From IMG/VR virus record IMGVR_UViG_3300010430_000283, positions 1 through 34,100 of that record: a stretch of DNA of 34,100 nt; one strand, written 5' to 3'. The stretch is from a virus. Each line of letters opens with the position of its first letter. Positions within the stretch are counted from its first letter, which is position 1. Positions 19,929 through 33,331 of the stretch are shown here, piece after piece. Under the pieces are notes generated by a model that did no database searches, had not been told where the DNA came from, and saw only the letters and a list, made by a program, of their open reading frames with translations. The position numbers and the translations under genes are program-made.

Positions 19929-20138
19929 ATGCGAAGACGTAGAAAACGCAAAAAGTGTGCCGTCAAAGCAACTTTCACAGACAGCTCTTGTCGGCAAAAC
20001 GGCTCTAGCTTTCGTAGTAAAGGAGCAGGATTGATGAGCCCTCATGGTCGTGGCCTTGGCATTGGAAATTTATCTTCGAACATGTCCGGCTTTTGTAAGG
20101 CCTCAGGAGCTTCGACAGGTTATCTAAATGAACAGTAG
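19929..20138 (+). CDS. Small Gly/Cys/Ser repeat protein, member 1
   Basis: 69 aa. A poly-basic start (MRRRRKRKK) is followed by the family pattern: TDSSCRQNGSS, then HGRGLGIGNLSS, then GFCKASGASTG. The GxGNLxS block followed by xxCxxxGAST is shared with the members at 23291 and 28145. The arrangement of [ST]DxSCxxxGxS units with a GxGxG tract between defines the thirteen-member family in this window. Only this member has an Arg-rich head. Function unknown. Confidence 0.65.
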   Translation: MRRRRKRKKCAVKATFTDSSCRQNGSSFRSKGAGLMSPHGRGLGIGNLSSNMSGFCKASGASTGYLNEQ

Positions 20139-20168
20139 GCTAGAGAGACGTTTTGACGAATAGCTACG

Positions 20169-20417
20169 TTATAGCTTCAGATGCTTCATAATCTTCTCCA
20201 AAGACTCCTCAATAAAGTCGAGCCTGTTGGAGATATCTGTAGATTTTTCAATATTGTCTACAGTTGCTTGGATCTGCTTGATTGAAGCTAGGATTTTCTC
20301 AGCCTCGGTCAGTTTTTTGGCTCTTGTGAGCTTGGCGTATTCGTTTCGACAGTCTTTACAGTAAGATTGGCCGTCGGCTTTGTCTTTTTGTTGACACATG
20401 GGGCACAGTTTTGACAT
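20169..20417 (-). CDS. Small zinc-ribbon and coiled-coil protein
   Basis: 82 aa on the minus strand, the only minus gene in the right arm. The N-terminus has C-x2-C...C-x2-C (CPMCQQKDKADGQSYCKDC), a zinc-ribbon similar to the N-terminus of the HNH protein at 7187 (CAIC...SYCRTC). The rest is one or two long helices with heptad character. The ATG at 20417 is chosen over a TTG at 20429 because GGAG lies 6 nt upstream of it. A regulatory or DNA-binding role is plausible but unproven. A cluster of ATGACTT repeats and a late-promoter-like motif lie upstream. Confidence 0.7.
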   Translation of the reverse strand: MSKLCPMCQQKDKADGQSYCKDCRNEYAKLTRAKKLTEAEKILASIKQIQATVDNIEKSTDISNRLDFIEESLEKIMKHLKL

Positions 20418-20444
20418 ATTTCGCTCCAACTTCAGAGAAATTCA

Positions 20445-20513
20445 ATGACTTTGCGTGAATTTACTCATAAAAAGTCAATGACTTCATATGAGTTACATGA
20501 CTTTTCATGACTT
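20445..20513. repeat. Phased ATGACTT repeats
   Basis: ATGACTT at 20445, 20478, 20497 and 20507, and ATGAGTT at 20488. The last four are spaced about 10 bp, on one face of the helix. The copy at 20478 is part of the palindrome AAGTCAATGACTT. They lie between the minus gene and its candidate promoter, so they may be an operator. Confidence 0.6.
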
Positions 20514-20519
20514 TCCGCT

Positions 20520-20541
20520 ATATAGACCATAACCGGTATAT
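20520..20541 (-). promoter_or_regulatory. Candidate promoter of the zinc-ribbon gene
   Basis: The minus strand contains CGGTTATGGTCTATAT (20520-20535), 15 of 16 identical to the element before the portal gene. It lies 102 nt from the ATG, farther than in the structural genes, with the ATGACTT repeats in between. Confidence 0.45.
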
Positions 20542-20623
20542 ATACGGGGCCTAAACGCATTAAACTGCGAGAAAACCGCATATTTCAAGATTTCCAAGAT
20601 TCTCAAGGATCAAGGGGTTTACT

Positions 20624-20692
20624 ATGTTCTATTTGTTCCACCTCCTCAAGAAACAGCAAGAAAATGCCGAAAAACAGCGGAAAAACGCATAA
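20624..20692 (+). CDS. Possible 22-aa leader peptide
   Basis: ATG after AAGGGG at good spacing. It encodes MFYLFHLLKKQQ and a charged tail, and overlaps the start of the next gene. It is too short to judge; it may be a leader that couples translation of the 20664 gene. Confidence 0.3.
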   Translation: MFYLFHLLKKQQENAEKQRKNA

Positions 20693-20870
20693 AACGAACG
20701 CCGAATGCTCTCCATATGGTCAAGGACACGGGGGCGGACATGCTTGGGGATGGGGTACTGAATATGGCGATTGTCCATGTGGAGGCACTATTTTGGAGGC
20801 CGTATCTGGCGACTGTTGGGCTGATGGAGTCTCTAGAGACCTGTGGGAAATCCGCCCATTTTCGGGGTAA
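20664..20870 (+). CDS. Small Gly/Cys/Ser repeat protein, member 2
   Basis: 68 aa. Family features: AECSPYGQGHGGGHAWGWG, then YGDCPCGG, then SGDCWADGVS. The block (D/E)CSPYGxxxGxG is shared with the member at 23291 (DCSPYGHNY). Gly alternates with His, Trp or Tyr in the centre. Basic N-terminus (MPKNSGKTHKTN). The start overlaps a short upstream frame. Function unknown. Confidence 0.6.
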   Translation: MPKNSGKTHKTNAECSPYGQGHGGGHAWGWGTEYGDCPCGGTILEAVSGDCWADGVSRDLWEIRPFSG

Positions 20871-21229
20871 ACGGGCTGTTTTTTGCGGGAAAATGGCCCA
20901 TTTGGTCAGATTATTGTGTGCTTGGGTGAGGAGCTTACACCCAAACAACACCCCCCAAACAAACGACCCTCCTGCTGATTGGTATTATGTGTATGTAGTG
21001 TATGTGTTTTTATACTATATATACGCTTATTTAGTGGTTTTTCGGCTCTTTCAGTCCTTTGGTAAAACGATATCGCGCTAGATTGAAAAACTGCCCGCCA
21101 ATTGCATTTTTCTTAGGGTTTTTCTAAGTCCTTATCTGGCCTCACCTTACAAACTGGATTAGAATTGAGATTTAATTCATTTTAAATCATTTAGAAATCC
21201 AGCGGAAATTTCACTAGGAGATATTATAC
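20871..21229 (+). other. Non-coding region with promoter motif before the kinase gene
   Basis: No credible gene. A weak hairpin GCCC...GGGC (20854-20876) followed by TGTTTTTT may end the upstream transcript. AT-rich TGTATGTAGTGTATGTG repeats lie at about 20990-21010. The third promoter-like motif is at 21061-21085, leaving a leader of about 145 nt before the GTG at 21230. Confidence 0.5.
21061..21085 (+). promoter_or_regulatory. Candidate promoter motif, copy 3
   Basis: GGTAAAAC-GATAT-CGCGCTAGATTG, identical in layout to copies 1 and 2. It lies in an intergenic gap about 145 nt before the kinase gene. Confidence 0.6.
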
Positions 21230-21658
21230 GTGATTACAATCATGCGAGGCGCTCAAGGGTTTGGTAAATCTCACTACATTAAGAACAATCTCCCAGAGGA
21301 AACCATTGTTTGTAGTGCGGATCACTTTTTCATGAAAAACGGAGATTATCTGTTTGACCCGAAACAAATCAGCAAGGCCCACGAGGAATGTCTCAAAAAG
21401 TATACGCTTCTTGTTGCTTCTAACTACAGTGGGCACATCGCAGTAGACAACACCAACATTCGACTTTGGGAGATTTCCCCATACGTCAACCTTGCCACCG
21501 CATTTGGCCTTGATTACAAGATTGTCGAAATCGTGGCCAATCCGACAATTGCAGCCGCAAGAAACATTCACGGAGTTCCTGAAAAAACTGTAATTCAAGC
21601 CTATAAAAACCTTGAGGAACCGCTTCCTTGGTGGAATTATGAGTTGTATCAAAATTAA
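21230..21658 (+). CDS. P-loop kinase (AAA_33 / N4BP2L-like)
   Basis: 142 aa. Walker A GAQGFGKS (7-14). Then CSADHFFMKNGDYLFDPKQI and KAHEEC, which match the polynucleotide-kinase-like P-loop family (T4 Pnk kinase domain, NEDD4-binding protein 2-like), where the Asp of the SADxF stretch acts in catalysis. VDNTNIRLWE follows, as in the family. A substrate such as a 5'-OH nucleic acid end is possible but not shown, and no phosphatase or ligase domain is attached. GTG start, favoured by AGGAGA 8 nt upstream. It is the first gene of a block of overlapping small genes. Confidence 0.8.
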   Translation: MITIMRGAQGFGKSHYIKNNLPEETIVCSADHFFMKNGDYLFDPKQISKAHEECLKKYTLLVASNYSGHIAVDNTNIRLWEISPYVNLATAFGLDYKIVEIVANPTIAAARNIHGVPEKTVIQAYKNLEEPLPWWNYELYQN

Positions 21659-21878
21659 TTACGGAAAACCAAACATTTTCTACCGGATTAAAGTATCTAC
21701 AGGCAAATGGCACTGGGTACGTGATTGGACAGAAAACAATAAGTCTTTTAGTTGTGCCGTATGTGATAAAAGCGGTTCCCGAACGGGAGTTGTTCTTTGC
21801 GGACTTATTCAGGGTGATTTACTCAGAAAAGAAAATGCCCTGCACAATCTAACCTTTGACTCTTTGGAAAGGGTCTGA
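21639..21878 (+). CDS. Hypothetical small protein
   Basis: 79 aa from ATG 21639, which overlaps the kinase 3' end by 20 nt. It contains KINYGKPNIFYRIKVSTGKW, several Trp residues and a CAVC pair. Ends 2 nt before the next ATG. Not recognised. Confidence 0.6.
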   Translation: MSCIKINYGKPNIFYRIKVSTGKWHWVRDWTENNKSFSCAVCDKSGSRTGVVLCGLIQGDLLRKENALHNLTFDSLERV

Positions 21879-21880
21879 TT

Positions 21881-22147
21881 ATGGATTATTCGGCAAAAGT
21901 TACTGCATTTCTGGAAAAACAAAGCAGGATCAAGTACATGCTCGAAAAAGCAACAGAGGATGTTTTGGGTTTACTTAATCCGCCCCGCTGTAATGTTGAT
22001 TGTGGCGAGATTGTCCTTGAGACGAACGCAGAGGCCGTCTTAGAGCATTTGGCTGATGAACCTGTCCACCTAGTCAGAAATTGGGAAGGGGCCTTAGAAA
22101 GCCTCACAGAGGACGAGGTAGACTATGAAATCGAATTCTACGAATGA
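21881..22147 (+). CDS. Hypothetical acidic protein
   Basis: 88 aa, strongly acidic at the C-terminus (LTEDEVDYEIEFYE). Helical N-terminus. Starts 2 nt after the previous stop. Not recognised. Confidence 0.65.
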   Translation: MDYSAKVTAFLEKQSRIKYMLEKATEDVLGLLNPPRCNVDCGEIVLETNAEAVLEHLADEPVHLVRNWEGALESLTEDEVDYEIEFYE

Positions 22148-22352
22148 CGGAAGAGGCAAGGCATCAGGAAAGTGCAGAGCATCAGGAAAAGGCAAGGAAG
22201 TCATACTTAAAGACTCAAGGGGTTGCAGCTCTGGCATATGTAGTAAACGGGGCGAATCAATTGATTTTTATATGGAATGTACTCCCCAAGGATATTCCAG
22301 AGTTAATTATTCCAGCTTAATACTTTATGAATCCTGGGCAAACCATGGTTGA
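22125..22352 (+). CDS. Small Gly/Cys/Ser repeat protein, member 3
   Basis: 75 aa. Family features: GRGKASGKCRASGKGKE, CSSGICSKRGESID and MECTPQGYS, i.e. Cx2-3(S/R)G(K/E)S-like units in close succession. It is more Lys-rich than other members and has a longer non-repetitive C-terminus (NYSSLILYESWANHG). Overlaps the previous gene by 23 nt. Its TGA lies inside TTGATAAATAGAAAAAA, a string also found at the end of the 22888 member. Confidence 0.55.
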   Translation: MKSNSTNDGRGKASGKCRASGKGKEVILKDSRGCSSGICSKRGESIDFYMECTPQGYSRVNYSSLILYESWANHG

Positions 22353-22400
22353 TAAATAGAAAAAATTTTATTATTAAAAGAAATGGAGCGGGATTTTTCC
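22349..22400 (+). repeat. Duplicated AT-rich leader element
   Basis: The AT-rich part AAAAATTTTATTATTAAAAG followed by GAGCGGGATTTTTCC resembles 19107-19150 (AAAAATTTTATTATTTAAA, then GGCGGGATTTCTCC). The TTGATAAATAGAAAAAA portion (22349-22365) recurs at 23088-23104. GATAAATAG resembles T4-type late -10 sequences, but this is only similarity. Confidence 0.45.
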
Positions 22401-22502
22401 ATGCAAATCAAACTAACTGAACACCAATTAGCTGATGCAGTTAAGCAGATGGATCTATCTGATCTTGCATTGACCAAAAGGGAGTATATCAATGAAATCT
22501 GA
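22401..22502 (+). CDS. Very small hypothetical protein
   Basis: 33 aa, MQIKLTEHQLADAVKQMD..., amphipathic helix-like. It overlaps the next gene by 11 nt. The duplicated leader directly precedes it. No function can be assigned. Confidence 0.45.
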   Translation: MQIKLTEHQLADAVKQMDLSDLALTKREYINEI

Positions 22503-22764
22503 ACGTTTTAACAACTCGATGGTCGATTTTTTTGATAAAGCTATATATATGTTTTTTTGTGGGCTCATTCTATCCACAGTAATCCTTGTTGTGTTTTTAA
22601 CAGCGACAGGAGCCGTTAGTGTCACGAGGGAACTAGACAAAGAACCAATCAAAATAAACCTTTTGGATTCCAACAAAAAACTAATCAAGCAACTTGATGG
22701 ACAGGTATATTCCACACCGGGAAAATACAGCACAATAAAATCCATAGAAGTTACAGTCAAATGA
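22492..22764 (+). CDS. Small single-pass membrane protein
   Basis: 90 aa. One hydrophobic segment at about 17-42 (AIYMFFCGLILSTVILVVFL) and a soluble, basic and beta-like C-terminus. GGAG lies 7 nt upstream of the ATG. Likely in the cytoplasmic membrane with the C-terminal part on one side. Unknown role. Confidence 0.65.
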   Translation: MKSERFNNSMVDFFDKAIYMFFCGLILSTVILVVFLTATGAVSVTRELDKEPIKINLLDSNKKLIKQLDGQVYSTPGKYSTIKSIEVTVK

Positions 22765-22882
22765 TGGGCACCATAGCCCTATTTTAACAACAATCACCAA
22801 GGTAAAAAAAATGAGGCAACTTTATATATATCTCTCGCTAAATCTGGAGTGCGAAGACATGGGGCATCATAGTCCTATTCTA
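22762..22882 (+). repeat. Imperfect direct repeat around the 22888 start
   Basis: ATGGGCACCATAGCCCTATT (22763-22782) is repeated as ATGGGGCATCATAGTCCTATT (from 22859), about 96 bp apart, each followed by T(T/C)TAA and a short ATCAC. This may reflect a partial duplication of a gene junction. Confidence 0.5.
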
Positions 22883-22891
22883 ATCACATGA
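22811..22891 (+). CDS. Possible 26-aa peptide
   Basis: ATG 22811 to TGA 22889, encoding MRQLYIYLSLNLECEDMGHH and a short tail. It ends in an ATGA overlap with the following family gene, but no strong Shine-Dalgarno is seen. Low support. Confidence 0.3.
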   Translation: MRQLYIYLSLNLECEDMGHHSPILIT

Positions 22892-23091
22892 ATCACCACC
22901 ACACAGACACCTCATGCGACACATCAGGGAAATCGAGTTTTGATGATATGCCTGAAGAAGAAATGTGGGGCTTTGGTTACATTTGGACGGATTGTTCGGA
23001 TTCTGGTTTGGCTAACCCATCTTACTGGAGAGAAGCTGATTGTAAAGAATCTGGAGAATCGAGCAATGCTCGCGGTATGTCGAATTGTTGA
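22888..23091 (+). CDS. Small Gly/Cys/Ser repeat protein, member 4
   Basis: 67 aa. Three repeat units: TDTSCDTSGKSS, WTDCSDSGLAN and EADCKESGESS, separated by acidic and aromatic stretches (DDMPEEEMWGFGYI). The C-terminus is RGMSNC. It lacks a long GxGxG tract. Followed at 25 nt by the companion gene 23116. Function unknown. Confidence 0.6.
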   Translation: MNHHHTDTSCDTSGKSSFDDMPEEEMWGFGYIWTDCSDSGLANPSYWREADCKESGESSNARGMSNC

Positions 23092-23115
23092 TAAATAGAA
23101 AAAAGGAAAAAATTG

Positions 23116-23286
23116 ATGAACTCTGAAATCTACGAAAAAACTTCTGGCGATGGCAACCAATTCTGGAAAATGATCAAAGGAAACCAACTAATTCCCGTCA
23201 AGAAGATTGGCGGATGCTGGCGTCAAGTCGGTTTGACTCCTACTGATTACAATGAGAAAATCTTTACGTTCCATGAACTTGGGTAA
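23116..23286 (+). CDS. Small IY...LIPV-type protein, copy A
   Basis: 56 aa, MNSEIYEKTSGDGNQFWKMI then NQLIPVKK and GCWRQVG. It aligns along its full length with the product of 27963-28148 (shared IY, W-x-M, LIPV-x-K, W, YxxK-x-F). Each copy lies immediately upstream of a family member containing GYGNLKSDC, so it belongs to a duplicated two-gene module. Beta-rich, resembling a small SH3-like barrel, which is only an impression. AAAGGAAAAAATTG before the ATG supplies a Shine-Dalgarno. Confidence 0.65.
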   Translation: MNSEIYEKTSGDGNQFWKMIKGNQLIPVKKIGGCWRQVGLTPTDYNEKIFTFHELG

Positions 23287-23290
23287 GCCC

Positions 23291-23488
23291 ATGACTGAAA
23301 TGACTGACAGTTCTTGCAGAAGATCAGGCAAATCCGCTCTTTGGATGACAGATTGCTCACCTTATGGGCATAACTATGTCGACCATGGAGACGGTGGTGA
23401 AGGCTCTGGCTTGGCTTACCCAGACGGCGAGTGTCATGGGTACGGAAATTTAAAATCTGATTGTGATAAATGTGGCAGAAGCACATGA
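23291..23488 (+). CDS. Small Gly/Cys/Ser repeat protein, member 5
   Basis: 65 aa from ATG 23291, chosen because it lies just after the companion stop; ATG 23300 is possible. It is a full family exemplar: TDSSCRRSGKSA, TDCSPYGHNY, HGDGGEGSGLAYPDGECHG and GYGNLKSDCDKCGRST. The last block is nearly identical to that in the 28145 member. Its stop overlaps the next family gene (ATGA). Confidence 0.65.
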   Translation: MTEMTDSSCRRSGKSALWMTDCSPYGHNYVDHGDGGEGSGLAYPDGECHGYGNLKSDCDKCGRST

Positions 23489-23670
23489 CAGACAATAAAT
23501 TTACCGACTGCAATCGCTTTGGCAGATCCATCAAAACATTAACTAATGAAAAAGCCGGGCAAGGACACGGTTTAGGCCTAGGTGAAGGCGAAACGAACAT
23601 GTCCGGCAAGAGCTATGGTTTTGGTTGGGCCGCAGACACAGGCGACGAAACAGGCGCAAGCGAATGCTAG
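23485..23670 (+). CDS. Small Gly/Cys/Ser repeat protein, member 6
   Basis: 61 aa. Begins MTDNKFTDCNRFGRSIKTL, then a GxG tract (GQGHGLGLGEGETN), then MSGKSYGFGWAADTG and a C-terminal Cys. ATGA overlap with member 5 and a 7-nt overlap with member 7, so three family genes are translationally coupled. Confidence 0.65.
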   Translation: MTDNKFTDCNRFGRSIKTLTNEKAGQGHGLGLGEGETNMSGKSYGFGWAADTGDETGASEC

Positions 23671-23873
23671 GTGACTTTGACGAATCAGGCGAAGGTAACG
23701 GAATAGGAGCCTATGAGGGCTACGTACACGAAAGCCTTTGGATGGACGAACTCAACAATCCCTACACGTATATGCCTAACGGAGATGGTTGTACGGAAAC
23801 TTCAACTCTGGGGTGCGGCATAGGTTTTGATTTTAACGAACACGCTCAGGAGAACTTTCATGAATCCAGCTAG
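23664..23873 (+). CDS. Small Gly/Cys/Ser repeat protein, member 7
   Basis: 69 aa from ATG 23664 inside the end of member 6. ESGEGNGIGAYEGYV, then an acidic and aromatic centre, then NGDGCTETSTLGCGIGFDF. It is the most acidic member, with fewer canonical DC units. Overlaps the next gene by 14 nt. Confidence 0.55.
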   Translation: MLGDFDESGEGNGIGAYEGYVHESLWMDELNNPYTYMPNGDGCTETSTLGCGIGFDFNEHAQENFHESS

Positions 23874-24075
23874 ATTTGGAGGTATTCCCCCAAGAGACTA
23901 CAGTCAACCTACAGTACAACAAAGGGAATCAGCTACTTGTGACGAGTTTTTAGAGGAAGTCCGACCAATTTTTCACGACCTTAGGAATACCTTGGTCGCT
24001 AATTCTGTATCTGGACACATTGCTCTTCCCGATGGGAAATACAAGATAACAATCGAAATAATCAATGAACATTAA
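23860..24075 (+). CDS. Hypothetical small protein
   Basis: 71 aa from ATG 23860, preceded by AGGAGAA. MNPARFGGIPPRDYSQPTVQ, then a helix (CDEFLEEVRPIFHDL) and a beta-like end. Not a member of the Gly/Cys family. Overlaps the next gene by 11 nt. Confidence 0.6.
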   Translation: MNPARFGGIPPRDYSQPTVQQRESATCDEFLEEVRPIFHDLRNTLVANSVSGHIALPDGKYKITIEIINEH

Positions 24076-24217
24076 AGTAACAGGTCTTGATAGCGGCGGG
24101 GTAAAACTATTCGAGGCCGAGGAAACCGTAGATCCCGACAATACCCTACAAGATATTAAAAATGATGTCTTGCGGGAAAATCCCCACGTAACTCAGATTG
24201 TAATATGTCTTACATAA
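24065..24217 (+). CDS. Hypothetical small acidic protein
   Basis: 50 aa, MNIKVTGLDSGGVKLFEAEE..., embedded in the overlapping gene string (11-nt overlap upstream, 13-nt downstream). Continuous frame without unusual codons. Not recognised. Confidence 0.5.
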   Translation: MNIKVTGLDSGGVKLFEAEETVDPDNTLQDIKNDVLRENPHVTQIVICLT

Positions 24218-24429
24218 TTAACAGCAAAGGGAAAGGGTGCGGTCGAAACGACACTTTTGGACAAGGGAATGGTCGAGGAGATATTGATAGCGACTGTAAT
24301 TCTAACGGGAAATCAATAGACGCTTTCAATCTTTATGTCGTGGAATGCCTAGGCAACGGAAAATCATGTGCGGCTGACGGCATGTCTTTTGAAAGATGTG
24401 ACACTTTTGGAAAATCCATACGGTGGTAA
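24205..24429 (+). CDS. Small Gly/Cys/Ser repeat protein, member 8
   Basis: 74 aa. The clearest repeat organisation in the family: NDTFGQGNGRGD, SDCNSNGKSID, VECLGNGKSC, ADGMSFE and RCDTFGKSIRW, i.e. successive (D/E)(C/T)xxxGKS-like units about ten residues apart. SIINSKGKGCG at the N-terminus. Function unknown. Confidence 0.65.
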   Translation: MSYIINSKGKGCGRNDTFGQGNGRGDIDSDCNSNGKSIDAFNLYVVECLGNGKSCAADGMSFERCDTFGKSIRW

Positions 24430-24432
24430 CTT

Positions 24433-25250: not shown

Positions 25251-25458
25251 CAAAAACAAAATAACCACATTTCGCTCTATTGAGCTTAGCGACGACGCCG
25301 TGAGAGATCATTTGGATTCCAAAATAAAGGCAAAAAGCCTCTCTTCAATAAATTGTAAGGGCCCAGATTGTTTCTGTAATGAAATTATGGCTGCTTATAG
25401 GCACGCCCCACCTGAATTGAAAGATTTAATTTTCCGAAAGTTGGCTGGTTGTGAGTAA
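25243..25458 (+). CDS. Hypothetical small protein
   Basis: 71 aa from ATG 25243. Charged, helical, with CKGPDCFCNE in the middle and a C-terminal Cys. Not recognised. Ends 4 nt before the dockerin gene start. Confidence 0.6.
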   Translation: MDNKNKITTFRSIELSDDAVRDHLDSKIKAKSLSSINCKGPDCFCNEIMAAYRHAPPELKDLIFRKLAGCE

Positions 25459-25462
25459 TTCT

Positions 25463-26440
25463 ATGAATTTCGAAAGACTTGAAAACAGAAACATGTTTTG
25501 CTCTGGCGTCGTTATGGCTGACGAAGTTATGCCAGTGGGTGATTTAACAGGGGACGGCAAAGACGACCTGTTAGTCTACAGGGAAAACCGAGATGCGTAT
25601 TACGCTATCGGTCTGGACAATCAGATTGAACGAATAAATCTGCCAGAACCAACTAACGACCCTTGGGACACACAAATTATAAACCTTGGCGATATCGATA
25701 GAGATGGCAAGACTGACTTAGCTGTAAAATATAGAGGAAACAGTATACAGTTTGGGTTTCTCGGAAACTTTGACACCTCTATCATTGGTCCAAAACGCCT
25801 AAGCAGACTGCTTGATGACAGTTCTTATCAGATAGACTATGACGTAAACCCTTACGACCAATGGGATTACAACAACGATGGCTCGCCAGACAAGCCCTGC
25901 AAAGATGGAAATCTGACAGGCATTACGCTCGGTGAACCAAGAGCCAAAGCAGAAAGCGCCCCGGAACTCTTTTTATCAATAGAAGATAATTTTATCTATT
26001 TAAATGGTACTGCCGACGAAATCTTTGGCTTTGATATCTACTCTAAGGATGGCACCCTAGAAGTCCTTGAGGATTCGCCATTGACATTTCGTGCCCGATT
26101 TAACTCTGAACCTAACGAAGTCATAATTCGTCATTACGATGAATATGTAAGTCTTGACGGAAAGGCTAGTCTAGGTGTAAGATACACAGGCAGTCTAGAA
26201 AACCTCCATGTGGAATATCACCACGAGGCCACTAAAACAAGCAATCCAGTCAAGGGAATTCAAGGGGATTCAAACTTGGATGGGGCCACCGACTTCGCAG
26301 ACTTTTTAGCTTTGTCTCGTCATTTCGGTAAAACAGTAGACGCCGAGGTTGACGCTGCAATGTGCGATTTCGACGGAACGGGACGGATTGACTTCGGGGA
26401 CTTCCTTATTCTTTCACAAAATTTCGGAAATAACTCATGA
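25463..26440 (+). CDS. Planctomycete-type surface protein with FG-GAP-like and dockerin repeats
   Basis: 325 aa from ATG 25463 (a GTG at 25451 is also in frame). The N-terminus, MNFERLENRNMFCSG, resembles the RLExR/LExR signature at the start of many planctomycete secreted proteins. Then come two FG-GAP-like calcium loops, VGDLTGDGKDDLLVYR and LGDIDRDGKTDLAVKY, a further NNDGSPD loop and a beta-rich middle (about 160-265). The C-terminus has two dockerin/EF-hand-like repeats, GDSNLDGATDFADFLALSRH and CDFDGTGRIDFGDFLILSQN. It was probably acquired from a planctomycete host. Possible uses are host-surface remodelling or superinfection exclusion; neither is shown. The Cys in NMFCSG could allow lipidation, but it is not a standard lipobox. 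Confidence 0.8.
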   Translation: MNFERLENRNMFCSGVVMADEVMPVGDLTGDGKDDLLVYRENRDAYYAIGLDNQIERINLPEPTNDPWDTQIINLGDIDRDGKTDLAVKYRGNSIQFGFLGNFDTSIIGPKRLSRLLDDSSYQIDYDVNPYDQWDYNNDGSPDKPCKDGNLTGITLGEPRAKAESAPELFLSIEDNFIYLNGTADEIFGFDIYSKDGTLEVLEDSPLTFRARFNSEPNEVIIRHYDEYVSLDGKASLGVRYTGSLENLHVEYHHEATKTSNPVKGIQGDSNLDGATDFADFLALSRHFGKTVDAEVDAAMCDFDGTGRIDFGDFLILSQNFGNNS

Positions 26441-26944: not shown

Positions 26945-27019
26945 GCCCCCGTAGCTCAATTGGATAGTAGCAGCGGCCTTCTAAGCCGCAGGTTGTAGAT
27001 TCGAATTCTACCGGGGGTA
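26945..27019 (+). tRNA. tRNA-Arg (anticodon UCU)
   Basis: Full cloverleaf: acceptor GCCCCCG/CGGGGGT (one G-U), a short D arm, anticodon stem GCGGC/GCCGC with loop CTTCTAA (anticodon TCT, reads AGA), variable loop AGGTT, T stem GTAGA/TCTAC with loop TTCGAAT, discriminator A. CCA is not encoded. The D stem has only three good pairs. AGA is frequent in this phage's genes, so the tRNA may supplement the host. Confidence 0.92.
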
Positions 27020-27110
27020 CTCAATAGTCATTTCGAGTCTCACTTGAGATAGTTGCGTGTGACCAAGTTGGCTTTACCGCCTATGTTTAACAAGGCGTAT
27101 CTAAGTTACT

Positions 27111-27383
27111 ATGAACAACAACTTCAGCGACGGCAACGGCGACGGCGACGGCTACGGCTACGGCGACGGCTACGGCGACGGCAACGGCGACTGCAGCGGC
27201 GACGGCGACGGCAACGGCTACGGCGACGGCTATGGCGACGGCAGCGGCGACGGCTACGGCTACGGCTACGGCAACGGCAACGGCAGCGGCGACGGCTACG
27301 GCTACGGCTACGGCTACGGCAACGGCAACGGCTACGGCTACGGCTATGGCAACGGCGGCGGCTACGGTCACGACCACGGATAA
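27111..27383 (+). CDS. GX-repeat protein of the Gly/Cys/Ser family, member 9
   Basis: 90 aa, almost entirely alternating Gly with Asp, Tyr, Asn or Ser: after MNNNFSDG the sequence reads (G-D/Y/N/S)n with a single Cys in GDCSGDG, and ends GGGYGHDHG. At the DNA level it is a GGCNAC/GGCAGC hexanucleotide array with C at nearly every wobble position. The correct frame is the one that starts at this ATG and whose end (HDHG-stop) is conserved in the next gene; other frames give low-complexity Ala/Val/Arg strings. Alternating Gly suggests an extended or beta-like fibrous or low-complexity protein. Function unknown. Confidence 0.6.
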   Translation: MNNNFSDGNGDGDGYGYGDGYGDGNGDCSGDGDGNGYGDGYGDGSGDGYGYGYGNGNGSGDGYGYGYGYGNGNGYGYGYGNGGGYGHDHG

Positions 27384-27566
27384 GATTAATATGACAGACC
27401 CAGTTTGCAGCGATTACGGCAGCGGCTACGGCAGCGGCTACGGCGACGGTGACGGCTACGGCGACGGCGACGGCTACGGCTACGGCTACGGCTACGGCTA
27501 CGGGTACGGCAGCGGCAGCGGCAGCGGCACCGGCATCGGTAACGGCTACGGCCACGACCACGGATA
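27117..27566 (+). repeat. GGCNAC hexanucleotide tandem array
   Basis: About 450 bases of GGC(G/T/A)AC and GGCAGC units spanning two genes, interrupted only at the gene junction near 27369-27420. Open reading frames appear in nearly all six frames because stops are absent from the repeat. Expansion and contraction by slippage is likely. Confidence 0.9.
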
Positions 27567-27604
27567 AGATTAATATGACAGACCCAATTTGTGGCGATTA
27601 CGGC
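27369..27604 (+). repeat. Duplicated gene junction
   Basis: A 52-bp segment beginning CACGACCACGGATAAGATTA and including the next start MTDP(V/I)C occurs at 27369-27420 and 27553-27604 with few differences. It joins the stop of one family gene to the start of the next, direct evidence for tandem gene duplication. Confidence 0.9.
27391..27567 (+). CDS. GX-repeat protein of the Gly/Cys/Ser family, member 10
   Basis: 58 aa, MTDPVCSDYGSGYGSGYGDG..., then alternating Gly through a GTGIGNGYGHDHG end. The start is 7 nt after the previous stop within the duplicated junction. It shares its N-terminus with member 11 and its C-terminus with member 9. Confidence 0.65.
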   Translation: MTDPVCSDYGSGYGSGYGDGDGYGDGDGYGYGYGYGYGYGSGSGSGTGIGNGYGHDHG

Positions 27605-27763
27605 AATGGAGACGGAAGTGGCGACGGAGACGGTTGCGACTTCGGAGAAGGACAAGGAGACGGCGACGGCTATGGTGACGGCTTTTGCGATATTACTGGC
27701 GAAGGCTACGGCGAAGGCTATGGCGCTGGATTCTGTCATTACTCAGGGGAGGGTCGCTTTTAA
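27575..27763 (+). CDS. Gly-rich Cys protein of the family, member 11
   Basis: 62 aa, MTDPICGDYGNGDGSGDGDG, then CDFGEGQGDGDGYGDGF, CDITGEGYGEGYGAGF and CHYSGEGRF. It shows how the pure GX repeats connect to the Cys-containing units: each Cys opens a CxxxGEG block about 15 residues apart. Its codons are more varied than in members 9 and 10, so it may be the older copy. Overlaps the next start by 1 nt. Confidence 0.7.
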   Translation: MTDPICGDYGNGDGSGDGDGCDFGEGQGDGDGYGDGFCDITGEGYGEGYGAGFCHYSGEGRF

Positions 27764-27987
27764 TGAACAGCCAACAAATTCAAAGACTTAAACATTTCTC
27801 CAAAAGCAATAGCTGCGCGCCGCATATTTTACAATTAATGGATTGTTTAGTTTGTTTAGACAGCCTCTACGTTCATGAGGACGAATGCAATCATTGTATG
27901 GAAGCTGCCGCTATAATTCGACATAACACCCAAGACGAACCCCTTATTAGAGAGATATTAGAGTGTACGGAATCTACAAAAGCCTAG
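27763..27987 (+). CDS. Hypothetical Cys/His-containing protein
   Basis: 74 aa. Helical with CLVCLDSLYVHEDECNHC in the centre, a possible zinc site (C-x2-C, H, C-x2-H-C). Overlaps the following gene by 25 nt. Not recognised. Confidence 0.6.
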   Translation: MNSQQIQRLKHFSKSNSCAPHILQLMDCLVCLDSLYVHEDECNHCMEAAAIIRHNTQDEPLIREILECTESTKA

Positions 27988-28148
27988 CAACAAATGATTA
28001 TGAGTATTGGGCTATGGTCGAACAAGACAAGTTGATTCCGGTAGCTAAGTTTCCAAAAGAGGGTTGGGTTGCAATTGGTTTTGGAGTGAAAGCCTATTAT
28101 GATCCAAAAGTTTTCAAGATTATTCCCGGTGAGAACTTCCTAAAATGA
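27963..28148 (+). CDS. Small IY...LIPV-type protein, copy B
   Basis: 61 aa from GTG 27963. MYGIYKSLATNDYEYWAMVE, then KLIPVAKF and WVAIGFGVKAYYDPKVFK. Full-length paralogue of 23116-23286. Its stop overlaps the start of a GYGNLKSDC family member, as in the other copy, where the pair is separated by 4 nt. Confidence 0.65.
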   Translation: MYGIYKSLATNDYEYWAMVEQDKLIPVAKFPKEGWVAIGFGVKAYYDPKVFKIIPGENFLK

Positions 28149-28378
28149 ACTGGACAGACCTTTCTTGCATGGCAAATGGAGAATCAGTTATTTTAAACGA
28201 AACAGAAGGAGCAGGAAGGCCAAATCCGTACGGGGAAAGCTGGGGCTATGGTAACCTAAAGTCTGATTGCAATAAAGAAGGAGCATCGACGTGCCTGCTT
28301 TATGACGAAGATAATTTCTCCGACGGCCAATCCTACTCAAAAAACAAACGCTGTGACGAAAAAGGCTTTTCAAATTAA
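28145..28378 (+). CDS. Small Gly/Cys/Ser repeat protein, member 12
   Basis: 77 aa. WTDLSCMANGESVIL, GAGRPNPYGESW, GYGNLKSDCNKEGAST, NFSDGQSYSKN and RCDEKGFSN. It closely parallels member 5 in block order, and both follow an IY...LIPV gene. ATGA overlap with the upstream gene and 1-nt overlap with the downstream one. Confidence 0.65.
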   Translation: MNWTDLSCMANGESVILNETEGAGRPNPYGESWGYGNLKSDCNKEGASTCLLYDEDNFSDGQSYSKNKRCDEKGFSN

Positions 28379-28449: not shown

Positions 28450-28688
28450 TACCTGATTATGTAAAATGTTGGTGTAGACATATTGCTCAGGCTTATGACT
28501 TAGCTGCTCTTCAGTCATACTGCGAAGAGATACTAGAAGAGCGTCGCTCTATAGTAGAGCTAGACAAAAAAACTCAAGAAGAGATTCGTCATCTGACGCG
28601 GGTTAGGGCGGTGCAACATGTTAGAACCAAATTTAGAATCCCATTAAGACAAGCGTTAGATTTAGTAAGAAAATATGAACAAAATTGA
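28446..28688 (+). CDS. Hypothetical helical protein
   Basis: 80 aa, all-helical, MIPDYVKCWCRHIAQAYDLA and a basic second half (HLTRVRAVQHVRTKF). It overlaps the sigma factor gene by 14 nt, so it may be a partner or regulator of it, but nothing identifies it. Confidence 0.6.
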   Translation: MIPDYVKCWCRHIAQAYDLAALQSYCEEILEERRSIVELDKKTQEEIRHLTRVRAVQHVRTKFRIPLRQALDLVRKYEQN

Positions 28689-29220
28689 CCCCTTGGACCA
28701 TATTGGATTAATTCATACTGTGGCTCATCGTTGGGTTACACCCTCACCCAATATGTTTCCACTAGATGACAGATTGTCAGTAGGCTATATCGCTCTAGTT
28801 AAAGCAATAGAGAATTACAATCCTGCAAAGGGCGTGGCTTTCTCTAGTTATGCCTATGTTGTGATTCAAAGGCATCTCCACAGACACCAAATCACCAACG
28901 AACATCAGGGCTTTGCGATGCCCTACAATCCTGTAGAGCCAGCTCCAAAAGTTGGCACAATGCCCCGCAAAAAAGAAATCAACGATAGAAGCATTCTCAA
29001 CGAGGACCTATTTGAGCTAATCGACAACAAAGATTACATCGAAACCATCCTGAGTAGATGCTCTAAAAAAGAAAAATATATATTAAACAATATGTTGCAG
29101 GGGCGGTCTCAAGTTGAGATTGCGAAAGACCTTGGTTGTGGCAAGGCCAACGTAAGCAGGATTTACAATCTTGTGCTAAAACGAGAAAGAGAGCTTTACA
29201 ATGCAAACAGTGGCACTTAG
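28675..29220 (+). CDS. Compact sigma-70 family factor A
   Basis: 181 aa. Region 2: DDRLSVGYIALVKAIENYNP followed by GVAFSSYAYVVIQRHLHRH, the core-binding and -10-recognition helices. Region 4 HTH: ILSRCSKKEKYILNNMLQGR, SQVEIAKDLGCGKANVSRIY and LVLKRERELYN, which would read a -35 element. Regions 1 and 3 are reduced, as in FliA/SigF-like or phage factors. It is a paralogue of 30363-30905. It would redirect host RNA polymerase core to phage promoters; which motif it reads is not known. Confidence 0.85.
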   Translation: MNKIDPLDHIGLIHTVAHRWVTPSPNMFPLDDRLSVGYIALVKAIENYNPAKGVAFSSYAYVVIQRHLHRHQITNEHQGFAMPYNPVEPAPKVGTMPRKKEINDRSILNEDLFELIDNKDYIETILSRCSKKEKYILNNMLQGRSQVEIAKDLGCGKANVSRIYNLVLKRERELYNANSGT

Positions 29221-29449
29221 CGCTTCTCACGGGAATAATCTTGAGGCTATCTTGCTTTTGAGTCAGGCAGATGTGATTTATACAACTCAAGTTCGCCATA
29301 GAAGAGAACTACAAAAATTGTTTGGGCGTATAGTAAAATTCATCCCAGACAATAAGCCTGATATGATTGCTTTCCTAAGAGAGAGGCATAAAGGGGCAAA
29401 CTTCATCACCTATGAAGACCTATATGAGCTTCGACTGGGTGAAGAATGA
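29201..29449 (+). CDS. Hypothetical small protein
   Basis: 82 aa, MQTVALSASHGNNLEAILLL, then a basic helix (RHRRELQKLFGRIV). Overlaps the sigma gene by 20 nt and the next gene by 4 nt. Not recognised. Confidence 0.6.
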   Translation: MQTVALSASHGNNLEAILLLSQADVIYTTQVRHRRELQKLFGRIVKFIPDNKPDMIAFLRERHKGANFITYEDLYELRLGEE

Positions 29450-29670
29450 TAGTTTCTATGCACCGAGAACAATTCTTCTACCCGAAAGAGATTGTTGATG
29501 ACTATGGGGATTTGATTTACCAAGTGTCCACAGAGTATAGGGATCTTTGGGTTATCTTTGGTCCTAATGGAGTGCTGAGCAAGCATGACTGTCCCAAACA
29601 AGCCGAAAAAGCCTACCAGCAGTGGGAAGACTTCTTTAAGTCTCGCCCAAATAGAAAAAACAATAAGTGA
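29446..29670 (+). CDS. Hypothetical small protein
   Basis: 74 aa. MIVSMHREQFFYPKEIVDDY, then an alternating beta pattern and a QWEDFFKSRPNRKNNK end. The start overlaps the previous stop. The next gene begins inside it. Not recognised. Confidence 0.55.
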   Translation: MIVSMHREQFFYPKEIVDDYGDLIYQVSTEYRDLWVIFGPNGVLSKHDCPKQAEKAYQQWEDFFKSRPNRKNNK

Positions 29671-29842
29671 GTTTACTTATCTTGAGTGCATAAGTATATT
29701 CCAGACTGGAAGGATTTCAAAAAATTGGTACGATATTGGAGAAGAGGCCAGTTTGGTTCATGCTCATGTGATTCATTGTGGCGACTTTCAGAAGATAAAA
29801 TCTTTAGTTGCAAAAAGACTTTTAGACACGGTTCCTTTTTAG
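29585..29842 (+). CDS. Hypothetical small protein, long overlap with upstream gene
   Basis: 85 aa from the only in-frame ATG (29585), overlapping the previous gene by 86 nt. The part beyond 29670 (ISEFTYLECISIFQTGRISK...) looks like ordinary protein. The first 28 residues (Pro/Lys/Ser-rich) may be a by-product of overlap. A non-canonical ATA start near 29660 cannot be excluded. Confidence 0.5.
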   Translation: MTVPNKPKKPTSSGKTSLSLAQIEKTISEFTYLECISIFQTGRISKNWYDIGEEASLVHAHVIHCGDFQKIKSLVAKRLLDTVPF

Positions 29843-29853
29843 GAGATTAAATT

Positions 29854-30177
29854 ATGGATTATTTAAGCAGGCTTCGTGATTTTCGTTTGATTGCTAGACC
29901 ATTGATTGATGCTTATGAGAGCTGTTCTCTTACTGACCCTACCGATGATTTTTATTTAGATAGGGACCTAAGTGAAGACCATGCCTCAGAAACTCTTGAG
30001 GTTGTTACGGTGGCTTTATGTAAGGCTATCGAAGTTCAATTTCCCGAGTTATCAACTTTTCAGGTAGACACTCTGATGGAAACCTGGGCCGAAAGTTCTT
30101 GTGTTGATTGGCGCTCTATGAGAATTTTGATCCAAGAAAAACTGGAGGCCAGCAAATGTTCGGTTTCGGCCTTTTGA
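29854..30177 (+). CDS. Hypothetical acidic helical protein
   Basis: 107 aa, MDYLSRLRDFRLIARPLIDA, an acidic stretch (DPTDDFYLDRDLSEDH) and further helices. AGGAG lies 10 nt upstream of the ATG. Not recognised. Confidence 0.65.
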   Translation: MDYLSRLRDFRLIARPLIDAYESCSLTDPTDDFYLDRDLSEDHASETLEVVTVALCKAIEVQFPELSTFQVDTLMETWAESSCVDWRSMRILIQEKLEASKCSVSAF

Positions 30178-30353
30178 TTGGATTAAGCCTGGGCTTGATT
30201 TTTAATTACTATCAAACTAGGCGTTACGTAAAAAACCTAAACGAACTCACTTCTAGATGGAAGTCTGTCGTTGGGTTTTGGCAAACTAATTACTATTCAA
30301 AATGTAACACGAGGTACATTGAAAATTACAGAAGTAAACATTTAAACAATTGA
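30156..30353 (+). CDS. Small membrane-anchored protein
   Basis: 65 aa from ATG 30156, inside the end of the previous gene with GGAGG upstream. N-terminal transmembrane segment (FGFGLLIGLSLGLIFNYY), basic and aromatic soluble tail. Unknown role. Confidence 0.6.
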   Translation: MFGFGLLIGLSLGLIFNYYQTRRYVKNLNELTSRWKSVVGFWQTNYYSKCNTRYIENYRSKHLNN

Positions 30354-30362
30354 GAGGCGACC

Positions 30363-30905
30363 ATGATTAACCTTGAGGACCATCTAAATATAGCTTACAA
30401 GCTTGCACATGAGTGGAACACTCCAGAGTATTTCTTCCCCAAAGAAGAAAGAATATCTGTTGCGTTGCTTGGCTTAACGGTGGCCGCAAAGGGATTTGAT
30501 GAGTCTAAGGGGTATAAGTTCTCTACTTATGCTCATACAACAATTAGAAACCACCTTGCTAAATTTGCCTTTGAGGAGTGTAGACCGGCGATAAGAATCC
30601 CAAGATCTAACCGAAAAGACAGGGTTCTACCTAAGGTTGAAGAGTCGACTTTAGACATGATCTCCAAAGAGCAAGACTCTCTGGTTGCTGTAGAAAATGA
30701 GGAGTTTGTAGATGGTATTTTAAGTAGATGTACTCCGCAACAAAAATTTATCCTGAACGAGATTCTCAAGGGAAAGCTTCAATATGAAGTAGCTAAAACT
30801 TTAAAGTGTAGCAATCAACACGTTTCTGAACAGTATAATCGAATCTTAAGAAGAGAAAGAAAGAGACTAAATGAAAACTCCAAAAATCCTAAAACAGTGG
30901 CTTGA
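30363..30905 (+). CDS. Compact sigma-70 family factor B
   Basis: 180 aa, paralogue of factor A with the same two-part layout. Region 2: EERISVALLGLTVAAKGFDE, then GYKFSTYAHTTIRNHLAKF. Region 4: ILSRCTPQQKFILNEILKGK, QYEVAKTLKCSNQHVSEQYN and ILRRERKRLNENS. The strings ILSRC, KxILN, VAKxL and RERxxLNxNS are shared with factor A, while the -10-reading helices have diverged, so the two probably read different promoters. GAGGCG precedes the ATG. Confidence 0.85.
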   Translation: MINLEDHLNIAYKLAHEWNTPEYFFPKEERISVALLGLTVAAKGFDESKGYKFSTYAHTTIRNHLAKFAFEECRPAIRIPRSNRKDRVLPKVEESTLDMISKEQDSLVAVENEEFVDGILSRCTPQQKFILNEILKGKLQYEVAKTLKCSNQHVSEQYNRILRRERKRLNENSKNPKTVA

Positions 30906-31026
30906 CAATGCCGACCCTTCTGTTAAAAATTGGTTCATGGGATTGAAAGGTTCAGACAGGGAACGCGAATTCAAAATCGCCGAAAAAAACCTGACGGCCA
31001 TTCAAAAACACATTACTAAAGGGTGA
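30871..31026 (+). CDS. Hypothetical small basic protein
   Basis: 51 aa, MKTPKILKQWLDNADPSVKN, helical and basic. The start lies inside the end of the sigma B gene (35-nt overlap). Not recognised. It could act with sigma B, but nothing shows it. Confidence 0.5.
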   Translation: MKTPKILKQWLDNADPSVKNWFMGLKGSDREREFKIAEKNLTAIQKHITKG

Positions 31027-31028
31027 TT

Positions 31029-31619
31029 ATGTTTTACAGATTCAAACAAAATAATCCTGGAGGCTTCTTTGATTATAAGCCGCCCTTTGGGCTTTATGTT
31101 TATATCGAAGCCGACTCAGAGGATGCCGCAGTAAATCGAGCAGAGGAAGTGGGGCTTTATTGGAACGGCCAAGCCGATGGGGTTGACTGTTCGTGCTGTT
31201 TCGACAGATGGAAACCCGACCCTGAGTTGATTGACTTTAACATTAGGAAAGATGCTGCCCCATTGCCAGACATAACGTCTTTGGCTAGATATACCGCAAA
31301 CTACAGGGGCGGACCAACGTCTGTTGTTTACAGAGATGGCTTGGTGAAACTTTTTGATCATCTTGATGTTCAACACAAAGAAATCCAATTGGAGGACTGC
31401 AAAACCGACAAAGAACCTACTCTGATTGACTTGTGTCCACCGGCAGGATATATCTCAATTAAAGACCTGCAAAACGACCAAGGGGGCGAATTGTCTATCA
31501 ATGGAGAGGCGACTTTCAAGAAGAATGATGAAACTTTTGTCTTTTTAAGGGGTGACTTTAAAAAGATTGATGAGGAGACGCTCAATTTTTGGGCGGAAAT
31601 TTTCGTTAAACCTAGTTAG
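31029..31619 (+). CDS. Conserved phage protein (FYRFKQNNPGG type, possibly DUF7296)
   Basis: 196 aa from ATG 31029. The N-terminal module MFYRFKQNNPGGFFD, YVYIEADSEDAAVNRAEEVG, LYWNG and DCSCCFDRW is typical of a widespread phage family of unknown function that I believe is DUF7296. The Cys-Ser-Cys-Cys and Trp are hallmarks. The C-terminal part (about 115-196) is beta-like and specific to this protein. The start is 2 nt after the previous stop. Confidence 0.7.
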   Translation: MFYRFKQNNPGGFFDYKPPFGLYVYIEADSEDAAVNRAEEVGLYWNGQADGVDCSCCFDRWKPDPELIDFNIRKDAAPLPDITSLARYTANYRGGPTSVVYRDGLVKLFDHLDVQHKEIQLEDCKTDKEPTLIDLCPPAGYISIKDLQNDQGGELSINGEATFKKNDETFVFLRGDFKKIDEETLNFWAEIFVKPS

Positions 31620-31628
31620 AGGAAGATT

Positions 31629-31805
31629 ATGCTCGTTATAAACAGAAAGGTAAAGCAAGAGATTGTACTTACACATGAAGCTCTAGGAGAACCAATCGTT
31701 TTCAGTCTACAGAAAGTCAGTGGCAGCTATGCAAAAATTGGCATAGAAGCGCCGGATGACGTTAGGATTTTGCGCTCAGAATTACTTGAGAAAGAATCTG
31801 AGTAA
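31629..31805 (+). CDS. csrA: CsrA/RsmA-like RNA-binding regulator
   Basis: 58 aa, full-length CsrA: MLVINRKVKQEIVL (consensus MLxLTRKxGExIxI) and SYAKIGIEAPDDVRILRSEL (consensus VRIGIxAPKxVxVHREEI). Arg6 and Arg49, equivalents of the RNA-contact residues Arg4-7 region and Arg44 of E. coli CsrA, are present; the usual HREE is LRSE. CsrA homodimers bind GGA motifs in mRNA leaders and block or stabilise translation. AGAGGAAG provides the Shine-Dalgarno. A phage copy could reprogram host metabolism or time phage gene expression. It lies between the DUF7296-like gene and the MoxR gene, apparently in the same transcript. Confidence 0.88.
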   Translation: MLVINRKVKQEIVLTHEALGEPIVFSLQKVSGSYAKIGIEAPDDVRILRSELLEKESE

Positions 31806-31854
31806 ACCACCCGCTAGTTAATTTTTAAACTACTTTAATTTCAAGAGGAAAATT

Positions 31855-33051
31855 ATGTCTTCCAACAAAAAAACCGTTCAACGTGATCACTGGGAAACTA
31901 TTAAGGTTTCAATGACCAAAGCTCAAAAAATGATTGAGGCTTGCATTAAGGTTGATGCCCCTTTCTGGCTTTGGGGGTCTCCGGGTATCGGAAAATCTGA
32001 GATGTGTCGAGCAATCGCCAAGAAGGCTGGTTTTAAGTATATCTTAGAATTGACGCCCGCCACGTTTGACTTGGTTGATGGCCGTATTCCAGTGCCAAAG
32101 GACGGAGTTAAGGCAAAGCGGACAAATCTTCAAACTGGCGAAGTGGAAGAAGAGTCTATTGAAGGACTTGTTAGTGATTTTGCTATCTCTGCAATGTTCC
32201 CGCGAGACGGTAAAACCTTCCTGCTTTGTGATGACTTGGCAACGGCGGCACCTATCTTGCAGCCTCAGTTCTTCGCTTTGCTGAAGGACAAGCGAATTGG
32301 CACGTTTGATTTGCCTGAGGGGTCTTATGTCTGTGCGGCCAGTAACCGCCCTCAGGACAAAGCTGGTGCCACTATGCCGATTACTCCTATTCGAGGTCGT
32401 GTGACGCACATCTATGCTGTACCGTGTGTCAAGAAATTCGAAGAGGTGGCAGTCGAACGTGGGTTTAATCCAGGCTTGGTAGCCTGGGTAACGGGTGGCC
32501 TGAAAACCACAAACTCTATGAATCAGGATAAAGACGGACAGAAGCTGAAAGACGCTTTATCTTACTTTGATCCAGACGATATCTCAATCGGTTGCAATCC
32601 TCGTAACCTTGAACGTCTGAGCGATTTGCTCAATAGTGATATTGATATGGACTGCTTGACCGAGTTCGCCTGTGGAACCATCGGGGTTGTCTGTGGGATT
32701 CAATTCAGTAATTACTACCAGTCAGATTATCTGAAGAATATTCGTATTCAAGATGTTCTGAATGATCCGATGAACTGTGAAATCCCGTCAACTAATCGAC
32801 CTGACTTGTTGTATGCTCTGCTAATGCAACTTCTGAATGCGATTAACGTTGAGGACAAGAAGCAAGCGACCAAGAATGCTCGCGCTGCTACAGAGTTCAT
32901 CATGAATCGTATTTCGAATAAGGCTAAGAGCAGCATCTTTATTCACAATGCGATGTCTCGAAATCCCAAATACTTCTCGATGCTGACTAAGCCCCAGCAA
33001 CAGTATTTGATTAAAGAGTATGCGTCGATTTTCGCTGCTGCCGTAGGTTAA
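31855..33051 (+). CDS. MoxR-family AAA+ ATPase
   Basis: 398 aa. Walker A GSPGIGKS (41-48), Walker B FLLCDD (122-127), sensor-1 region AASNRP (161-166) and an arginine-finger stretch PIRGR (178-182), in the order of MoxR/AAA_5 proteins. A C-terminal helical lid follows. MoxR ATPases act as chaperones together with VWA-domain partners. The next large gene resembles DUF3150, often found beside phage MoxR genes and followed by a VWA/CobT-like protein, which would lie beyond the right edge. AAGAGGAAAA precedes the ATG. The gene ends just before a strong terminator. Confidence 0.85.
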   Translation: MSSNKKTVQRDHWETIKVSMTKAQKMIEACIKVDAPFWLWGSPGIGKSEMCRAIAKKAGFKYILELTPATFDLVDGRIPVPKDGVKAKRTNLQTGEVEEESIEGLVSDFAISAMFPRDGKTFLLCDDLATAAPILQPQFFALLKDKRIGTFDLPEGSYVCAASNRPQDKAGATMPITPIRGRVTHIYAVPCVKKFEEVAVERGFNPGLVAWVTGGLKTTNSMNQDKDGQKLKDALSYFDPDDISIGCNPRNLERLSDLLNSDIDMDCLTEFACGTIGVVCGIQFSNYYQSDYLKNIRIQDVLNDPMNCEIPSTNRPDLLYALLMQLLNAINVEDKKQATKNARAATEFIMNRISNKAKSSIFIHNAMSRNPKYFSMLTKPQQQYLIKEYASIFAAAVG

Positions 33052-33066
33052 TCGATTGGTTTGTCG

Positions 33067-33096
33067 CCCTGCCCCTTCGGGGGCGGGGTTTTCTTT
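33067..33096 (+). terminator. Rho-independent terminator with UUCG loop
   Basis: CCCTGCCCC-TTCG-GGGGCGGGG followed by TTTTCTTT, 15 nt after the MoxR stop. Nine pairs (one T-G) capped by the very stable UUCG tetraloop. Confidence 0.9.
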
Positions 33097-33109
33097 AAGT
33101 AGCTAGAAC

Positions 33110-33331
33110 ATGACAGCATTATTGATCCAGGACTCAGACATTGATGGTTATGGCAGAGGCTCTGGGTCTACTCCTGATGACATTAATGAATACGATTATT
33201 CTTTTGGAGGCGAAAAAGGTTTTGGCTGGGGTTTGGGCCGAGCCTGTGGAGCCTGTAGATCCGATAATTTAGGCCACGGAGGCGGAGACGCTTTTGGTTC
33301 TGGTTTCAGAAATAGCTCTGGAATAGGTTAA
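33110..33331 (+). CDS. Small Gly/Cys/Ser repeat protein, member 13
   Basis: 73 aa. DSDIDGYGRGSGST, YSFGGEKGFGWGLGRACGACRSD, then NLGHGGGDAFGSGFRNSSGIG. Two Cys in ACGAC and many alternating Gly. It is placed alone between a terminator and the DUF3150-like gene, far from the other members. Family membership is weaker than for members 5 or 8 but the composition and motifs agree. Confidence 0.55.
   Translation: MTALLIQDSDIDGYGRGSGSTPDDINEYDYSFGGEKGFGWGLGRACGACRSDNLGHGGGDAFGSGFRNSSGIG

Follow-up and report, generated by a model that had tools for sequence, protein, structure and literature searches.

Small Gly/Ser/Cys proteins of a viral record and their apparent tie to Gly-X tract proteins of other viruses

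Introduction

Low-complexity domains of the FUS type are composed of [G/S]Y[G/S], and silk is an extracellular structural protein with a like alternation of Gly, Tyr and Ser. Polyglycine helices, repeating every three residues, make up the Gly-rich segments of the phage protein gp38. A polyglycine-rich phage tail-fibre adhesin of this name is on record (PMC12892980).

Small phage proteins make up a large unexplained share of viral genomes, and composition filters tend to conceal those of low complexity in ordinary searches. Here we analyze thirteen small ORFs (m1 to m13) of an uncultured bacterial virus, IMG/VR record IMGVR_UViG_3300010430_000283; the whole 34.1 kb stretch, called the window below, is probably a genome fragment. 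The original prediction took all thirteen for one undescribed, actively diversifying phage protein family.

Results

The thirteen ORFs were confirmed on the plus strand at the predicted starts, with 58-90 codons each. They are given here together with two copies of a neighboring gene, gene A.

19929..20138, plus strand: m1, core member; TDSSCRQNGSS ... GIGNL ... CKASGAS; leave-one-out E 2e-8; blastp to m12 1e-7
20664..20870, plus strand: m2, possible member; AECSPYGQGHGGG, DCWADGVS; shuffle z 5.1 with m5; profile E 0.22-3
22125..22352, plus strand: m3, possible member; two CxxxGxS units; profile at noise; 23-nt overlap of its start with the preceding ORF
22888..23091, plus strand: m4, core member; TDTSCDTSGKS ... 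DCKESGES; leave-one-out E 3e-3
23113..23286, plus strand: gene A copy 1, directly 5' of m5; paralogue of 27963-28148 (blastp E 1e-4, alignment)
23291..23488, plus strand: m5, core member; TDSSCRRSGKS, TDCSPYG, GYGNLKSDCDKCGRS; leave-one-out E 5e-9
23485..23670, plus strand: m6, probable member; TDCNRFGRS and GxGxG; 4-nt overlap with m5; profile E 0.02-0.12
23664..23873, plus strand: m7, Gly-rich ORF, membership unsupported; no unit; shuffle z at most 2.4; start overlaps m6 stop
24205..24429, plus strand: m8, core member; four CxxxGxS units; leave-one-out E 2.5e-4
27111..27383, plus strand: m9, (Gly-[Y/D/N/S])n tract protein of the viral Gly-X class; TRF hexamer array 27130-27556
27391..27567, plus strand: m10, hybrid; unit head TDPVCSDYGSG, then Gly-X tract; unit pattern in 0/4507 control ORFs
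27575..27763, plus strand: m11, hybrid; unit head TDPICGDYGNG, then Gly-X tract with CDITGEG and CHYSGEG; junction ACGGATAAGATTAATATGACAGACCCA common to m10
27963..28148, plus strand: gene A copy 2, directly 5' of m12, 4-nt overlap
28145..28378, plus strand: m12, core member; TDLSCMANGES ... GYGNLKSDCNKEGAS ... RCDEKGFS; leave-one-out E 1e-10
33110..33331, plus strand: m13, Gly-rich ORF, membership unsupported; no unit; shuffle z up to 4.0, and this with Gly-X ORFs alone

Together the thirteen ORFs amount to 2763 nt, which is 8.1% of the window and not the 4 percent or so first given. The start overlaps the upstream stop by 4-23 nt in five members, indicating translational coupling, and the annotated frame is the best fit of synonymous codon use in 11 of the 13 (the exceptions are m3 and m4). 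On both grounds the ORFs look genuine.

Units of the predicted type, [ST]DCxxxGxS, do recur far above chance. With the three ORFs that have long Gly-X tracts set aside, C-x3-G-x-S occurs 17 times in the other ten, compared with 0.6 ± 0.8 times in within-protein shuffles, and [ST]D..C...G.S eight times compared with 0.04. The unit always begins with Cys, often with an Asp ahead of it, and the longer form TDxSCxxxG is common to m1, m4, m5 and m12. Two or more units are found in 6 of the 49 ORFs between 19.9 and 33.4 kb, against 0 of 4449 control ORFs (50-150 aa, from further loci that total 1.28 Mb and are almost all viral), and the stricter unit [TS]D(x0-2)CxxxGx[SG] is found in 0 of 4507; because it was Gly-X tracts or unit patterns by which the control loci were picked, any bias among them should favor ORFs of these kinds. 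The unit does not extend to all thirteen ORFs: CxxxGxS is found in m1-m6, m8 and m12 only and is absent from m7, m9, m10, m11 and m13, with m10 and m11 carrying a CxxxGxG form instead. That the unit stems from a repeat in the DNA was rejected, since the codons differ between units (both TGT and TGC for Cys, three codons for Gly and five for Ser).

Profiles built by leaving one sequence out rank m1, m4, m5, m8 and m12 ahead of all ~4500 control ORFs, at E 1e-10 to 3e-3, and the shuffle z scores are high within this core (15.0 for m1-m12, 11.4 for m5-m12, 8.2 for m1-m5 and 8.1 for m8-m12). By profile and pairwise comparison, these five are demonstrable homologues. The best non-seed in every profile run is m6, at E 0.02-0.12, while m2 and m3 are at the noise level in the core profiles and have only the unit in common with the core; the family would then have at least five and perhaps eight members. 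Neither m7 (shuffle z 2.4 at most), m13 nor m9-m11 are among the listed matches of the core profiles, and m9-m11 form a separate group, with shuffle z 5.9-9.7 among themselves. The two groups appear to be tied together by m10 and m11, which start with a unit and of which m10 has shuffle z 4.4-5.2 with m1, m5 and m6; this link runs through the short unit head alone, and the core profile misses both proteins. A thirteen-member family of a single kind of protein is not supported by these results. What stands is a core of five with m6 and perhaps m2 and m3, next to three Gly-X tract proteins and two ORFs whose membership is unsupported.

The history of the copies differs between the groups. Residue for residue m5 and m12 have the same block GYGNLKSDC, yet 7 of its 9 codons differ synonymously. 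With synonymous sites near saturation in a conserved block, the core copies look old and the conserved blocks appear to be under purifying selection, which would act on the protein. Of the blocks said to be nearly identical between distant members, GYGNLKSDC is confirmed for m5 and m12 only, and DCSPYG is inexact (TDCSPYG in m5, AECSPYG in m2). Since paralogous copies of gene A (23113 and 27963) precede both m5 and m12, a two-gene cassette of gene A and a unit protein was probably duplicated. The proteins m9-m11 are tandem duplicates, in which the junction ACGGATAAGATTAATATGACAGACCCA is retained at both borders of m10 in near-identical DNA. Active diversification, as originally proposed, is thus shown for m9-m11 alone and not for the old-looking core copies.

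Searches of PHROGs, Pfam and NCBIfam gave no match to the unit family beyond weak ones that look compositional, in support of the predicted undescribed family. It gave only E ≥ 2 in 50,697 phage records, no relative in IMG/VR by the unit patterns used and a best E of 0.63 in the PDB, in searches limited by the difficulty of finding short repetitive proteins. All seventeen IMG/VR unit-pattern matches are due to chance, as are, in our judgment, the genome-contig matches L005 and L006 (HAD-type proteins with 14 residues in common), and the Caulobacter phage matches concern another gene. The core profile matched nothing in 94 Gly-X-bearing records, and the same profile retrieves its five seeds in the window. 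We found no description of these proteins in the literature. The unit family thus appears to be previously unrecorded and to have no detectable relative in the collections searched.

By contrast, proteins like m9-m11 occur in many viruses. One degenerate pattern with a (GY)3G[DN]G core matched at least 120 IMG/VR stretches, yielding at least 150 Gly-X ORFs in at least 118 loci, and nothing in 398 Pseudomonadota genomes. Among the matches listed, most ORFs have a head of at most 25 residues and a stop almost directly behind the tract, the median tract length being 62 residues, and at least 26 loci have two or more tracts. The X residue in the 168 tracts of these matches is Y (44%), D (25%), N (12%) or S (12%), together 93%, where the bait favors Y, D and N at few positions per tract and Ser lies outside it. 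Ser in the same listed tracts is written mostly as TCY and not AGY, which together with the restricted choice of X suggests that the residue is chosen at the protein level. We found no credible Pfam, PHROGs or NCBIfam family for these proteins (matches to Pfam TrAA12 and NCBIfam ser_rich look compositional), and the class, judged from these matches, would be widespread among viruses and have no family name in the libraries searched.

All of m9-m11 have Gly at alternate positions over at least 16 residues, with X mostly Y, D, N or S, and they have the short head, tract of ~60 residues and near-immediate stop of the viral Gly-X ORFs, which likewise often occur in several copies per virus. Unlike those ORFs, m10 and m11 have the TDxxCxxxGx[SG] head that is absent from the 4507 control ORFs. 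The core unit proteins differ in having few Gly-X repeats.

Several observations concern the Gly-X loci themselves. In viral record L092 a DUF7666 domain (PF24703) is followed by a Gly-X tract, so tracts can trail domains; none of the window ORFs scanned with Pfam has this domain. The tract of that protein (L092:514-996) slips frame into a Met-Ala repeat, an instance of tract instability. A recurrent N-terminal domain, TxxDVLxAGACxDGV, stands ahead of Gly-X tracts in L011, L018, L024, L045, L065, L079, L082, L094, L110, L114, L118 and L120, and six of these (L011, L024, L082, L094, L114 and L118) gave only a compositional TrAA12 match in Pfam. Four tandem ORFs at L021:1681-2971 have identical heads (MRSSMGLKAFLKFG) and identical tails (EPNLTSAGATVVEE) with different Gly-X tracts between them. 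In several loci, with L044, L061 and L115 the closest cases, Gly-X ORFs have an AAA/VWA pair in their vicinity; a general association was rejected, since just 8 of the 120 loci listed have an AAA or VWA match.

Gly, Ser and Cys tend to occupy every second position, with an excess of pairs at lags 2, 4 and 6 (z 5.4, 4.0 and 4.7) and a deficit at lags 1, 3 and 5, although the signal comes partly from the unit, in which C, G and S are evenly spaced like Gly in the tracts. The structure prediction suggested at the outset was run with AlphaFold for m12 and m9 and gave no fold (pLDDT 36 and 38), which fits disorder as weak evidence, given that the input alignments held 1-5 sequences and such values reflect disorder or lack of information alike. 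Specific motifs were sought in all thirteen proteins. The proposed Ca-binding role finds no backing in RTX nonapeptides, GGxGxDx(hydrophobic), which occur in 0 of 13, nor does metal binding as a zinc finger, there being two isolated CxxC and no paired knuckles. The P-loop at which the GKS unit ends hint is likewise absent ([AG]x4GK[ST] in 0 of 13), as is any long hydrophobic stretch. Nor was a RiPP modification enzyme found among the 17 non-family ORFs scanned with Pfam or PHROGs. A role at the RNA level with the phage CsrA was rejected as well, because ANGGA, 2.3 times denser in the ORFs, is expected from the proteins they encode (28 against 27.6, codon-controlled).

Other features of the window are:

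3-2504, minus strand: LamG-like protein, structural block
4694-6646, minus strand: portal-like protein, structural block
11358-14702: terminase large subunit with intein-like insert, Walker A interrupted
25451-26440: one protein with FG-GAP repeats, dockerin domain and LENR-type start
26945..27020, plus strand: tRNA-Arg (TCT), by ARAGORN and Rfam RF00005, just 5' of the Gly-X array
28675-29220 and 30363-30905: pair of sigma factors, paralogous but diverged (34% identity), near the unit-protein genes
31629-31805: phage-encoded CsrA (Pfam E 9e-13)
adjoining m13 (33110..33331): AAA ATPase gene

A pyrimidine-dimer glycosylase is also encoded. With its FG-GAP repeats, dockerin domain and planctomycete-like, LENR-type N-terminus, the protein at 25451-26440 may point to a planctomycete host. 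None of the 50,697 phage records comes close to matching 19.1-34.1 kb, and relatives sought via the terminase, the portal, the AAA protein, the sigma pair and the unit patterns came down to one near-identical sister contig, IMGVR_UViG_3300027820_000090. It breaks off ten bases inside m1, at position 19938 of the window, perhaps because this region is hard to assemble. The two contigs differ by 20 substitutions, of which nine fall within ~250 bases of the terminase gene (13844-14087), all at third codon positions, and are likely a recombination tract. The terminase insert, of ~420 residues, lies directly behind the Walker A Lys (GSRGSGK / STCIA), and two otherwise different ORFs (17724-18278 and 19424-19882) have the short tail DLLDLF in common.

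Discussion

We tentatively prefer to regard these proteins as an old, genome-internal, probably disordered Gly/Ser/Cys family together with members of a widespread Gly-X class, both being accessory proteins that would act by multivalent weak contacts. Specifically, unit proteins built on [ST]D(x0-2)CxxxGx[SG] would be joined via the hybrids m10 and m11 to the (Gly-[Tyr/Asp/Asn/Ser])n class, both types placing small residues (Gly, Ser, Cys) on alternate positions. Probably made from a small-gene region of the host-takeover type, such sticker-and-spacer chains may attach to a target of host or phage origin, coat it or cluster it, with Tyr and Asp as stickers (also Cys, Lys and Arg in the unit family), and the number of copies would provide avidity and variety. 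Disorder, timing, multivalent binding and target are the parts of this picture that we infer, and the mechanism itself, that of disordered, weakly adhesive and sticky binding proteins, is our best guess. Against stickers or condensates, Cys would be unusual, being rare in typical condensate-forming low-complexity proteins.

The main rival, somewhat unlikely and still a serious contender, is that the proteins are host-takeover or anti-defence inhibitors, each of which folds or tightly binds its own host target, the copies being a diverged arsenal. This would suit their position amid numerous small ORFs of no known kind, along with CsrA and two sigma-factor genes, and also their duplication, divergence and very different spacing between units. 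However, the conservation of the unit and of GYGNLKSDC at near-saturated synonymous sites argues against a separate job for each copy at those positions, and no anti-defence relative was found in the collections searched. The evidence is compatible both with condensate-forming or sticky disordered proteins and with a host-takeover role; the preferred reading and this rival overlap.

A broader proposal, to which we give a rather small chance, is that many unrelated viruses keep a virus-specific class of alternating Gly-X sticker proteins for condensates or coats inside infected cells, and that this virus evolved a Cys-bearing branch by repeated duplication. It is improbable that the proteins are decoration or glue of the virion, low-complexity chains on capsid or tail that are possibly Cys-crosslinked after release: the Gly/Tyr/Ser alternation resembles that of extracellular structural proteins and a chain can have as many as five Cys, with little His, but the genes lie outside the minus-strand structural block with the portal and LamG-like genes, and the chains have no long hydrophobic stretch. 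Metal-binding or redox proteins, for which the constant Cys of the unit, often behind Asp, would provide regularly placed ligands, are very unlikely, since the set has one CxxC each in m5 and m13, one CxC in m2 and few His, and the Cys of one protein are mostly at least a unit apart and not paired. Least credible is that Gly-X tracts are selfish microsatellites (GGCTAC/GGCGAC hexamers subject to slippage) without a protein role and the unit ORFs unrelated genes, for despite the hexamer array of m9-m10 and the frame slip in L092, 93% of X across the listed tracts is Y, D, N or S when a single change of the third base could produce E, K or a stop, Ser is mostly TCY, most listed Gly-X ORFs have a short head and tail that keep the frame, and unit ORFs keep residues with different codons.

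A clear unit, a family recovered by leave-one-out profiles and an apparent link to a class found in at least 118 viral loci together offer a handle on low-complexity viral proteins. Compared with known systems, gp38 is alike in being a Gly-rich phage protein, but a polyglycine adhesin of that kind was rejected here because the three-residue register is absent, with 5 Gly-Gly pairs at lag 3 where 18 are expected. In relation to FUS-type domains, the core unit proteins differ in being Cys-bearing and Tyr-poor and the cellular context is another, whereas m9-m11, likened to them by sequence, have Tyr spaced by Gly or Ser in the same manner.
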